Assembly (NCBI GenBank): GCA_017964345.1
Contig: JAGCSD010000122.1
Coordinates: 1-11,302, forward strand
From: Clostridia bacterium
GTDB lineage: Bacteria > Bacillota > Clostridia > Christensenellales > QALW01
Direction of reading: 5' to 3'
Length of the DNA stretch: 11,302 nucleotides
Under the pieces are notes generated by a model that ran no database searches, was not told where the DNA came from, and saw nothing but the letters and a program-made list of their open reading frames with translations. Of the stretch, positions 1-4,999 are shown in pieces. Within the stretch, counting starts at the first letter, position 1. Each line of letters opens with the position of its first letter. The position numbers were made by a program, and so were the translations under genes.

Positions 1-1
1 A

Positions 2-127
2 GGCGACTACACCGCCGCCGCAGTCAGCAGTTTCAGCGCCGGAGAGCCGCATGCCACCGTCGATGGCAACGTATATCGGGTGTTGGCGCGATGGTTCGAC
101 CTCGACACGCCGACGGACACGCCGGCG
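2..127 (+). pseudogene. mutY: Internal fragment of adenine DNA glycosylase MutY, truncated at both ends
   Basis: The translation begins GDYTAAAVSSF and continues VDGNVYRVLAR. GxGxYT is the end of the MutY helix-hairpin-helix DNA-binding motif. The Asp of DGNV matches the catalytic Asp (Asp138 in E. coli MutY) and the following RVLAR is family-typical. MutY removes adenine mispaired with 8-oxoguanine. The family is normally about 330-370 residues; here everything after about DTPTDTPA is missing, including the Fe-S cluster cysteines and the C-terminal 8-oxoG-recognition domain. The fragment reads straight into the linker of the glycosidase gene. The 5' part lies outside the window, so an intact copy elsewhere cannot be excluded. 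The exact end is uncertain by about 25 bp because DTPTDTPA could belong to either partner. Confidence 0.82.
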
Positions 128-2458
128 AATACGATGACCGGTACTGCCGGGAACACGGCGGCGGTCACGACGCAGGCAGCGACAAATACGCAGTCCGCGG
201 CGACACCGACGGCGGCCCCCGCGTCTACCGGCAACGTCATACCCGCGGCGAGCAGTACGTTTAATACCGTCAGCAATATCAATCAAACCGCATGGACGGA
301 GAAATACGGCAGTATTACCGCCACCATCGACAAGGACGGCTATAACGGCACGAAATGCTTAAAATTCACCAAATCCGGCGGCAGCGCGGCGTCCTTCCAC
401 ACGGCGGCGATTGATTTGATTCCGTTTGTCAAAACGGCGGACAGTTATGTCATCCGGTTTTACTTTAAGGTGACGTCCTCCAAAACGCAATCGCCGTTTC
501 ACGGCGTTATTCGTACCGATCAGGTCTATTCTTTCTCGCAAGCCTACGGAAGCAATACGTATGCCGACCTTGCTACCGCGCCGACCTGTCATCCCAATGA
601 ATGGACGTACTATGAAGACTATATAACCGTCACACAGGGGGATCTGAACAAAGCGAAAGCCGCGGGCGCTTTCTGGCGGTTTGGCTTTCATATGTTCAAA
701 GACGGCATTACCGCGGTATATGTCGATAATTTTGAGGTCGTTCCGCTATCGGCTTTGAACGAAAAGGAAGAAAAGCCGGTCACTACCGCCAAGACATGGG
801 TGGCGGAAGAAATCGTACTGCTTTCAAGCAAGACGTATAACGATCCCTACCGCGATGTGGATGTGAGCCTCGTTTTGACCAAGGGCTCCACGACGCTGAC
901 GGTTCCCGGCTTTTGGGACGGCGGCAACGTGTGGCGCGTTCGTTTCGCCTGCCCGAGCGCGGGAGAATGGTCGTATAAGACCGTTTGCACCAACACCGCC
1001 GACAAAGGTCTGCACAACCGCACCGGCAAGGTGACCTGCACGCCATACAGCGGCAGCTTGGATATTTACAAGCGAGGTTTCGTCAAGACCGTGTCCGGCA
1101 AAACATATTTTCTTTATGACGACGGCACACCGTTCTTCTACTTAGGCGATACGCACTGGAGTCTGTCCGGCGAGCCGGTCGCGCAGGTGCGAAAAACTGC
1201 CGACGCGCGCGTTTCGCAGGGATTTACGGTCATACAAAGCGAACCGCTCAGCGCCGCGTTCAAAATGGACGACGGCATTTCCTCAACGGATATTCTGGGC
1301 TTGCGCGCCAATGACGAACGGTTTGCCTATATCGCCAAAGTCGGGCTGGTACACGCCAACGCGCAGTTCTTCTTCCCCAGTGAAATGGAATCTTTCATCA
1401 ATCTTTTCGGCGGGTTTACGGGAAAAAGCGCGGGTACGGCGTACGGGAAAACGTACCGGGAGCCTTCCGATAGCGCAAAAAAAGAACTGGAACGTCTGTC
1501 GCGGTACTGGGTGGCGCGCTACTGTGCCTATCCCGTCATGTGGACTTTGGGGCAGGAAATTGACCGTGATTTCTATGCCGCGGGCACGAATCGCGCGTGG
1601 TGTTATTTGAATAATCCCTACAAACTGGTCGCGCAGTATATCGCCAAGTACGATCCGTACAAGCATCCGCTGACAGGACATCAAGAGGATGTCAGCTACA
1701 CCAAGGCAAGCAATTCTTCGTTCCGGGATGTGACGTCGCATACCTGGTATGCCGCGCAATGGTCGCAGAAGTACGATACCGCCATTGACTATGCCGCGCC
1801 CAGAGATTTCTGGAACAATAACCAGGGAAAGCCCGTGGTACTCTACGAAAGCAGATACTGCTATCTGTGGACGAAAAACTTCGGCGCCCGCGTGCAGGGG
1901 TGGATGGCGTTTTTGAACGGAATGTGCGGTTACGGTTGGGGCGGTCAGGACACTTGGAGTTATCTGAATCCCTATAACGAAAACGCCGATTCCGAGGACG
2001 GCGTAGATACAATCACCGCGGCGGAAAAACAAGCCGCCACGTGGGAGGATTCCCTGAAATACGAAAGCTGTTTCCAGGTCGGGTATATGCGCACGTTCTT
2101 TGAGAAAACCGTGGGCGACTGGTACTCTTTGATCCCACGGTTCGGCAGCAGTACCTACATGACGGGCAATACGACGCTCTTCATGCTGGCAAGCAACGCC
2201 GCCCATACGAAGATCGTCGTGTACTTCTACAATTTCTCCGATTCGAGCTTAGCGGAAAAGCCCAACAGCACCGCCGCTGACGCGGTCAAGACCGGCACGC
2301 TCAAGAATCTGACGCCGGGCGCGCAGTATCACTACCGGTGGTTCGATCCCGTGACCGGTAAGACGACTGACCCAAACACCTTTACGGCTTCTGCTTCCGG
2401 GACATGGGCGATCGGCTCCAAGAGCAAAGGCGATATGGTGCTATATGTGTACCGCTGA
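2..2458 (+). CDS. In-frame fusion: MutY fragment joined to DUF5060/DUF4038 glycosidase-like protein (5' partial)
   Basis: The frame is open from the window edge and ends at TGA 2456-2458. About the first 40 codons are MutY-like (separate entry). A Thr/Ala/Pro-rich linker follows (about 128-255), then a beta-sandwich resembling CBM4/9-type modules, ending in YVDNFEVVPL (about 256-750). A DUF5060 Ig-like domain with GFWDGG spans about 778-1060, and a DUF4038 (apiosidase-like, TIM-barrel) domain about 1057-1960. A C-terminal beta-sandwich ends with WFDPVTGKT. Candidate catalytic acids are the Glu of LGQEID (codon 1556-1558) and of LYESRY (codon 1847-1849). The paralogue at 2594-4999 has a signal peptide; this protein has none visible, so it probably lost its native N-terminus. 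In-frame GTG 80 and ATG 134 lack convincing ribosome sites, so neither is accepted as a start. The domain calls are firm; exact substrate is unknown, and whether the fusion exists in the cell is unproven. Confidence 0.85.
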   Translation, partial: GDYTAAAVSSFSAGEPHATVDGNVYRVLARWFDLDTPTDTPANTMTGTAGNTAAVTTQAATNTQSAATPTAAPASTGNVIPAASSTFNTVSNINQTAWTEKYGSITATIDKDGYNGTKCLKFTKSGGSAASFHTAAIDLIPFVKTADSYVIRFYFKVTSSKTQSPFHGVIRTDQVYSFSQAYGSNTYADLATAPTCHPNEWTYYEDYITVTQGDLNKAKAAGAFWRFGFHMFKDGITAVYVDNFEVVPLSALNEKEEKPVTTAKTWVAEEIVLLSSKTYNDPYRDVDVSLVLTKGSTTLTVPGFWDGGNVWRVRFACPSAGEWSYKTVCTNTADKGLHNRTGKVTCTPYSGSLDIYKRGFVKTVSGKTYFLYDDGTPFFYLGDTHWSLSGEPVAQVRKTADARVSQGFTVIQSEPLSAAFKMDDGISSTDILGLRANDERFAYIAKVGLVHANAQFFFPSEMESFINLFGGFTGKSAGTAYGKTYREPSDSAKKELERLSRYWVARYCAYPVMWTLGQEIDRDFYAAGTNRAWCYLNNPYKLVAQYIAKYDPYKHPLTGHQEDVSYTKASNSSFRDVTSHTWYAAQWSQKYDTAIDYAAPRDFWNNNQGKPVVLYESRYCYLWTKNFGARVQGWMAFLNGMCGYGWGGQDTWSYLNPYNENADSEDGVDTITAAEKQAATWEDSLKYESCFQVGYMRTFFEKTVGDWYSLIPRFGSSTYMTGNTTLFMLASNAAHTKIVVYFYNFSDSSLAEKPNSTAADAVKTGTLKNLTPGAQYHYRWFDPVTGKTTDPNTFTASASGTWAIGSKSKGDMVLYVYR
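104..127 (+). repeat. Imperfect 12-bp tandem repeat at the MutY/glycosidase junction
   Basis: GACACGCCGACG (104-115) is followed directly by GACACGCCGGCG (116-127), 11 of 12 bases matching. It encodes DTPTDTPA and lies where MutY similarity gives way to the linker. Such short repeats can mediate deletion or slippage, or mislead an assembler. Confidence 0.7.
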
Positions 2459-2593: not shown

Positions 2594-4999
2594 TTACGGT
2601 TTTTTCTTGGGCTTGAGCGCGTAGACCGCCACGCCCGCGACCGCGGCGACCGCCGCGACCGCCATCACGACGACCGGGACCGTGTTGCTTTTCGCGGCTT
2701 TTGAGCCGGCGTCGTCAGCTGTATCCGTATCTGCCGGTCGGATATCGGACACGCCGTCGGAATACACCGTGATGCCGGTGATCGCCGTGCGATAATAGTA
2801 GCTCTTTGTGTATTCGTTATAATAATATTCCAGATTGGAAGCCTTGGCTTCCGCCTCGGTAATATCATCGGCGACGAGCAATAAAACCTTCACATAGCGG
2901 AAATCGCCCGCCAAGGGTTCGCTGACGTTGTTGCCGTCCTTGACGGCGGGCAAATCCGTCCGGTTGACGATAATCGTCCAATCCTTGCCGTCATTTGAAC
3001 CTTCGATGCGATAGCGGGGCAGAGTTGTTTTTTCCGCCGGCGCGATAATGATATGCGTCAGCTTGTGCGCATCGCCCAAATCGTAAAGGATCGTCTGGCT
3101 GACACGATCGGCAAACGGACGCCAGAGAGTGGACGCATCGTTATCATATAAATTTGCGGTAAGATCGACCATGACTTGTTTGTTGTTATAGCTGATGCCG
3201 CCGATCGCCGTCACCTTGGCGGGCGTGACGGCGCTGCCGGTAACGGCACTGCCGCGGGAGGACAAGTCTTCGTACGGTTTTTCCGTTTTTATGCTCTTGC
3301 GCATCTGCTCGCAGGTGACGACCAGCGCCCAATCCGCTTTATCGGGCTTTTGGGGCAACTGCGCGATCGTGCCGTTCACGCTCACGTCAGCCGGCAGGAA
3401 TTTGCCGGTCAGCGGGTTGTACCACATGGCGGTATAAGTCTGTCCGGCGGCAAGTTTGAGCAACGTGCCGGTCGACTGATCGCCGTTGAAGAAATAACAG
3501 ACGAACGTCTTGCCGTCCTCGGAAGAGGAAACCAGTTTGTCATCATCCGCCGCGAAAGAAGCGTAATGCGTGTCGTTGAAGCGCGGGACAAGCGTCGTCC
3601 AATCGGGCAGGGTTTCAAAGAAGTTTTTCATGTACATGACTTCATAAGAACCCGGTTTGTTTAGACCCATATACCACGGTTCATAGCTGTACGAGCCGCC
3701 TTTGCCGTTGAACCAACCGGTTCGTCTGGTGGTGGAATAACAGCTTGCCCAAATGCCCGAAACGCCGTAAGTAAAGCCCGCACAGCCGCACATGATCGAT
3801 TTCCACGCGCAGTAGCGCGGGGCGTTGTAGCCGGTAAAGCCGCCGCAGTTGATTTCCTCATAGTTGGCTTCGCCCTCAATGACGGGCTTGACGTTCGGCA
3901 GTACGTAATAGCTCCGATAGAAGCTTTTAGGCTGTGTTTTGCCGCCGTGACCGCCTTGGAGGATCCATACATTGTGCCAGTCCGCCGAGTACAGACGTAA
4001 AGCGCGCGCATCCGTCATGGTCATCGGGTACATATGCGCGCCCTGCGGATGGTGATAGCCGTCCAGCTCGGCGGTCAACTCGGCAGTATCCATCCACACA
4101 TCCATACAGGTTTTGCCTTTGGTGAGGCTGTCTTTGGTATCGGTGATCTCCTGTCCGGTGATCCACACGATGTTATAGCAGGAATACCGCGCCATACAGT
4201 ACCGGACGAAACGCAGGAGCTGATCTTCCTTGAGCAGGTTGGGCGTGCCGGAGTGCAAACCGAAACCGAGCGCGATGACCATGCCGGAATTGTGAATGTA
4301 TTCAAACATTTTATCCACACGGCTGCGGAATACGTCGGGTCTGATCTTTCTGCCGGTGGTGACCCAGTAGCTTTTCAAGCCCTGCTCGCCGCCCTTGCAG
4401 GAAAAATACGTCTGATACACCGTAAAGCCTTTGGCGACGCGGTTGTCGACTTCTTCTTTCAGCATACTTCCGTTTTCATTATAAGGATAGTTGCTTTCGT
4501 CCCACGCCACGCATTCGGGTGCCTGCCAGTTGGTATCGCCCAGCCAGAAAAACGGCGTGCCGTCGTCATAGACGAAATAGCGTTTGTTGTCAGAAAGTCT
4601 GACGAAGCCGTGCTTGGCGGTATCGGTACTGCCGGCAGACGGCACCGCTTTGACCGTGCCGCTTGTCATCAGTCCGGTATCTTCCGCGTTGGAACAGGTC
4701 GTCGTATACGTCCAAACGCCTGTTTTGGTCGGAGAAAACCGTACCGCCCAGTTCTGCCCTCCGTCCCAGAAGCCGGGAGTCTTGATGACTGTTCCGTCCT
4801 CGTGGGTAAAGACGGCGTCGAGCTCCGCGTCGGTGTAAGCGTTGTCATACGACACCGTGCTGGTCAATTTGATTTCAACCGGCGACCACAGTTCTGCTTC
4901 ATAGTCCGCGCCCTCGGCAAACAGGTGCGCACTGCCTAAAACAGGCGTCGCTCCGCATACGAGCGTCAGGCACAGAAGCGAAGAAAGCCATCGTTTCAT
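2594..4999 (-). CDS. Secreted, membrane-anchored DUF5060/DUF4038 glycosidase-like protein with F5/8-type C domain
   Basis: 801 residues. An Sec-type signal peptide (KR, then a hydrophobic stretch, about 1-28) leads into a DUF5060 Ig-like domain (about 35-125, GFWDGG at 76-81) and a DUF4038 barrel (about 130-450, DDGTPFFWLGDTNW at 145-158). Candidate catalytic acids are E284 in TGQEI and E377 in VIEGEANYE. A beta-sandwich with MWYNPLTGK follows (to about 565), then a discoidin/F5-8 type C domain (about 590-745, SNDGKDW), an acidic linker, one Ala/Val-rich membrane span (about 773-795) and a KPKKKP tail. It should sit on the cell surface and act on glycans; the family includes GH140 apiosidases, but the substrate here is not shown. 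Start: ATG 4997-4999 has GGGAGGA at 5006-5012. It is a paralogue of the gene at 2-2458 and converges on it. No clear terminator follows its TAA. Confidence 0.9.
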   Translation of the reverse strand: MKRWLSSLLCLTLVCGATPVLGSAHLFAEGADYEAELWSPVEIKLTSTVSYDNAYTDAELDAVFTHEDGTVIKTPGFWDGGQNWAVRFSPTKTGVWTYTTTCSNAEDTGLMTSGTVKAVPSAGSTDTAKHGFVRLSDNKRYFVYDDGTPFFWLGDTNWQAPECVAWDESNYPYNENGSMLKEEVDNRVAKGFTVYQTYFSCKGGEQGLKSYWVTTGRKIRPDVFRSRVDKMFEYIHNSGMVIALGFGLHSGTPNLLKEDQLLRFVRYCMARYSCYNIVWITGQEITDTKDSLTKGKTCMDVWMDTAELTAELDGYHHPQGAHMYPMTMTDARALRLYSADWHNVWILQGGHGGKTQPKSFYRSYYVLPNVKPVIEGEANYEEINCGGFTGYNAPRYCAWKSIMCGCAGFTYGVSGIWASCYSTTRRTGWFNGKGGSYSYEPWYMGLNKPGSYEVMYMKNFFETLPDWTTLVPRFNDTHYASFAADDDKLVSSSEDGKTFVCYFFNGDQSTGTLLKLAAGQTYTAMWYNPLTGKFLPADVSVNGTIAQLPQKPDKADWALVVTCEQMRKSIKTEKPYEDLSSRGSAVTGSAVTPAKVTAIGGISYNNKQVMVDLTANLYDNDASTLWRPFADRVSQTILYDLGDAHKLTHIIIAPAEKTTLPRYRIEGSNDGKDWTIIVNRTDLPAVKDGNNVSEPLAGDFRYVKVLLLVADDITEAEAKASNLEYYYNEYTKSYYYRTAITGITVYSDGVSDIRPADTDTADDAGSKAAKSNTVPVVVMAVAAVAAVAGVAVYALKPKKKP

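Follow-up and report, generated by a model that had tools for sequence, protein, structure and literature searches.

A reading frame that opens with part of a DNA repair enzyme and continues without a stop into a glycosidase raises the question of whether one bacterium makes both as a single polypeptide or whether pieces of two genomes were joined on the way to the assembled sequence. The window, that is, the whole stretch of DNA analysed here (11,302 bases), makes up all of contig C54; the assembly to which it belongs totals 1,022,296 bases over 204 contigs and is 73.29% complete. If true, the fusion would link DNA repair with polysaccharide degradation and suggest a mutator lineage; the evidence backs neither, and what looks like a fusion protein is almost certainly an everyday artefact. 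The original prediction described a MutY core passing in frame into a glycosidase, and the letters are as described: the open reading frame at 2..2458 on the forward strand encodes 818 residues with an open 5' end and zero internal stops, and it matches the NCBIfam mutY profile TIGR01084 as well as CBM_4_9, DUF5060 and PF13204. The features of this frame are as follows.

1..127, forward strand: piece of a mutY gene, most likely foreign; its bases 2-127 give 42 residues that coincide with 110-151 of the database protein P0124
104..127, forward strand: junction stretch GACACGCCGACGGACACGCCGGCG (DTPTDTPA), a candidate shared word that suits a MutY reading and a Thr/Pro-linker reading alike
128..2458, forward strand: 3' part of an apiosidase-like glycosidase gene, its signal peptide and some of its linker presumably lost at the contig edge
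281..652, forward strand: CBM_4_9 match, residues 94-217 (Pfam, E = 3.2e-6, over the cut-off)
788..988, forward strand: DUF5060 match, residues 263-329 (Pfam, E = 1.6e-18; 67.2 bits vs a cut-off of 27.2)
1097..2107, forward strand: Apiosidase PF13204 catalytic domain, residues 366-702 (Pfam, E = 6.5e-33; 115.1 bits vs 26.5)

Base 1 of the window is the edge of contig C54 and would be the last base of the codon preceding the 42 MutY codons. When the whole frame was scanned, its residues 1-41 matched positions 116-156 of TIGR01084 (E = 4e-7), and the first 58 residues scanned alone matched positions 116-155 (E = 7.7e-9). The score of the frame, 29.9 bits, lies below the curated cut-off of 286.5, so that the match is beyond chance and that of a fragment only, and by this whole-protein cut-off the frame does not count as a MutY; a Pfam scan of the frame gave no MutY-type match to the piece. 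As in known MutY proteins, the 42 residues from bases 2-127 fall in the HhH-GPD region and include the VDGNV motif with the catalytic Asp. The piece differs from them in spanning 41 of 277 profile positions, with the N-terminal part, the iron-sulphur region and the C-terminal domain missing; the iron-sulphur Cys residues and the C-terminal MutY domain are absent because the profile match stops at residue 41 and the identity to P0124 at residue 42. With so few of the profile positions present, the piece would not be expected to work as a MutY. Third-position G+C was 0.81 in the 42 MutY codons vs 0.68 in the other 776, a comparison with too few codons to weigh.

An intact counterpart of the piece emerged from a protein search in which only the 42 residues were scored, embedded in a complete MutY to bring full-length candidates into consideration (244 proteins at E ≤ 0.001 among 256 candidates, 120 of them listed). 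The top match, P0124, is a protein of 339 aa encoded on a separate contig of 6,982 bases, and at the protein level it is identical over all 42 residues (100%); the second match by E-value is 78% identical, and none besides P0124 exceeds 81% among the 120 matches listed. P0124 is itself a MutY over the TIGR01084 cut-off (303 vs 286.5 bits) and can be aligned over residues 5-324 with solved MutYs. At the junction P0124 reads DTPTDTPAGNRLF and the window reads DTPTDTPANTMTG, the two splitting at residue 43, base 128. Because the piece sits at a contig edge and agrees at 42 of 42 residues with an intact MutY on another contig before parting from it at residue 43, the apparent fusion is very probably a chimeric contig end in a metagenome assembly. 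As expected of a chimera, one side is intact elsewhere, with an identity that ends abruptly at residue 42, and the two sides are of different lineage, with a Bacteroidota-like MutY (the lineage of P0124 being judged from similarity) against a family that bears Spo0A. Of the three explanations that the original prediction had offered, a chimeric assembly join is thus strongly supported by the contig edge, the end of the P0124 identity and the lineage mismatch.

This mismatch was traced on both sides of the junction. Among the 80 named loci kept from the fragment scan (best 80 of 324), 73 were Bacteroidota, 3 Elusimicrobiota, 3 Poribacteria and 1 Acidobacteriota, and of the eight organism-naming entries among the 120 listed fragment matches, six were Bacteroidota (Saprospiraceae and Lewinellaceae among them), with one from Thermoanaerobaculia and one from Burkholderiales. 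Identity of P0124 reached 57.5% with the named loci (best 80 of 324) and no more than 47% with the listed matches from 297 genomes of the window's order, not counting the window. This comparison mixes samples, since motifs of the fragment itself served to pick the named loci (best 80 of 324) and similarity to P0124 the in-order loci (best 30), which tilts it somewhat towards Bacteroidota. In a quick tree of 120 MutYs, from which the named locus L064 was left out (alignment shorter than 200 residues), the 30 in-order sequences fell on one side of a branch (SH-aLRT 96), and nearest to P0124 were two database proteins and then Rikenellaceae (Bacteroidota). P0124 shared its only starred small group with these two database proteins, and no starred branch in this tree tied P0124 directly to Bacteroidota; its placement among them therefore draws on similarity and path length.

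The contig itself points elsewhere. No MutY over the family cut-off was found in any of five genomes of the window's family, its own included, three of which are at least 90% complete; the sub-cut-off matches in G001, G002 and G004 (81.2, 77.7 and 66.3 bits) are, judged by their scores, probably endonuclease III. Spo0A_C was found in 5/5 family genomes vs 1/14 controls (B. subtilis), pointing to Bacillota, and strong Shine-Dalgarno sequences precede 5/5 of the gene starts examined, whereas Bacteroidota usually do without them. Together, the Bacteroidota-leaning relatives of the piece, the MutY-free family, Spo0A and the Shine-Dalgarno sequences suggest a Bacillota contig that opens with a piece of what, judged by the similarity of P0124, looks like a Bacteroidota mutY.

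A real rearrangement, in which a Bacteroidota-like mutY was acquired and a later deletion fused the middle of this gene to that of the glycosidase and left a cytosolic remnant, would account for a frame that is kept and open. In a bin that is 73% complete, a missing gene says little about this one genome, and MutY looks patchy in the window's order, where 103 of 297 genomes match P0124 at a score of at least 169 bits and the remaining genomes give no match or, apart from the fragment in the window, one of about 61 bits at most. Against such an event stand the count of family genomes with a MutY over the cut-off (0/5), the agreement of all 42 residues with an intact MutY from a different contig and the confinement of the piece to the contig edge, and we consider it very improbable. 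The composite claim that an acquired Bacteroidota-like mutY is really joined to an exported glycosidase gene in a Bacillota bacterium, giving a cytosolic chimeric protein, is more improbable still. A check proposed at the outset, a complete mutY in the same genome, came back empty: the matches of P0124 in the window's own assembly were C54:2-133 and one endonuclease III, no second mutY was found there, and the sole HhH-GPD match over the cut-off was the endonuclease III on contig C159. At the DNA level, only the window itself matched when bases 1-420 were searched against three genomes of the genus and bases 1-260 against five of the family; with bases 1-130, six others among 396 genomes of the order matched over 24-40 bases (E = 1.1e-4 to 9.3e-4), which we took as chance. 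The suggestion of a genomic deletion that left a truncated mutY and raised mutation was rejected on the MutY-free family and on the existence of an intact MutY with the same 42 residues; the raised mutation was a deduction that found no support, and the worry about a mutator is lifted, since the fragment most likely comes from a different organism with an intact MutY of its own.

For the chimeric contig end, a mechanism can be proposed. The mutY of one organism and the glycosidase linker of another would have been joined via a short shared GC-rich word near 104-127; DTPTDTPA would be present in both sequences, and the shared codons would keep the frame. The native linker of the window's glycosidase may contain the 24-base word; the linker of a paralogue on contig C91 holds ACGCCGACCGACACG (TPTDT) and agrees with the junction word at 14/15 core bases but at only 16/24 over the whole word. 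The true upstream part of the glycosidase gene would presumably encode a signal peptide and further linker. Nodes shared between species are described as leading to chimeric contigs in de Bruijn metagenome assembly (PMC8171044). The present case resembles these contigs in that a short word, which could occur in both of two unrelated stretches, marks their meeting point and in that one side is intact on another contig; it differs in that the presence of the word on the glycosidase side is something we infer. The step from mutY into the linker would probably have been taken by the assembler. Within the same explanation, the sequencing of a DNA molecule that was already chimeric in the library would also fit the short similarity at the join, and we regard this route as rather unlikely, since joins via nodes common to several species are a described assembler error (PMC8171044).

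Of the 408 contig tips of this assembly, 202 were taken, the window's two included; 56 masked tips were left out and 146 were readable and compared. Two end-overlap pairs were present among the readable tips, with 26 and 20 bases, so short words do connect contig ends in this assembly; no shared starts of at least 12 bases were found among the 146. The piece is 127 bases long, and the idea that 127 was the assembler's word size is unsupported, no 127-base overlap occurring among the 146 readable tips. One of the six short DNA matches in other genomes of the order, G069:C14:10639-10662 (L100), agrees with the junction word 104-127 at 23/24 bases and lies outside any recognisable glycosidase linker.

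In favour of a genuine and functional MutY-glycosidase fusion stands one open frame with significant matches to both parts. Residues 1-110 of the fusion were searched against 5.8 billion proteins (2658 candidates), and no second MutY-glycosidase junction was found: apart from the window itself, the four matches comprised three proteins that have a MutY-type domain but lack the glycosidase domains. Looking for the same junction in protein databases, as the original prediction had advised, therefore returned the window alone, and its suggestion of a novel fusion is not supported, this search having found the junction in no other protein. The 818-residue protein is already present in a large protein collection as P0001. 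The same search brought up two other odd MutY combinations, in P0002 (on a contig of 2,022 bases) MutY running into a histidine-kinase-like part and in P0003 (4,795 bases) a prephenate-dehydratase/ACT-like part running into MutY, and these are possibly chimeras of a like kind.

The relatives of the glycosidase side speak against a true fusion as well. Residues 43-818, with PF13204 and DUF5060 both over their cut-offs, belong with the apiosidase-like glycosidases, and a search with them returned 1015 proteins at E ≤ 1e-50 among 8000 scored candidates, 120 of which were listed; all six organism-naming entries among those listed were Clostridia, Clostridiales or Ruminococcaceae. The likeness to DUF5060/PF13204 apiosidase-like glycosidases of Clostridia is close, P0005-P0013 aligning over 95-99% of the query at 51-59% identity; the difference is that in the window the signal peptide and the first part of the linker are missing and a MutY piece stands instead. 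The ten closest among the matches listed (P0005-P0014) pass a lipobox pattern near the N-terminus and are exported lipoproteins by sequence, and the nine that were read (P0005-P0013) each open with a lipoprotein signal, after which comes a Ser/Thr-rich linker; such an N-terminal export signal is absent from the window's frame. Besides the window, 119 listed glycosidase matches were available, and none carried a MutY motif. The lipobox pattern was passed by 46 of them; among the other 73, inspection by eye shows Cys-containing lipoboxes or Sec signals in many, and in some no signal at the first residue. Given these relatives and the junction search, we give a functional fusion hardly any credence.

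The original prediction had named intact genes at separate loci as the sign of an assembly artefact. The MutY half of this stands in P0124, and for the glycosidase the own-assembly paralogue on contig C91, identical in sequence to P0005, has its lipoprotein signal; no complete version of the window's own glycosidase gene turned up, same-genus relatives being at most 48% identical. We offer the case as a warning: where two good domain matches lie in one frame at the edge of a contig, their fusion can be an artefact, and one route to it is open wherever two organisms share a short low-complexity coding word whose shared codons preserve the frame.

Some further glycosidase homologues were seen along the way. 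In a genome of the window's genus, G002:C43:180-22021 carries five of them (L146, L148, L150, L152 and L155), closely spaced on one strand, in what looks like a tandem array, and G000:C96:4387-6651 (L144) holds another at 51% identity with one in-frame TGA within the match. The window itself has a second apiosidase-like gene at 2594-4999 on the reverse strand, with DUF5060 and F5/8 type C domains, whose product ends in a hydrophobic C-terminal tail closing with KPKKKP that looks like a membrane anchor.
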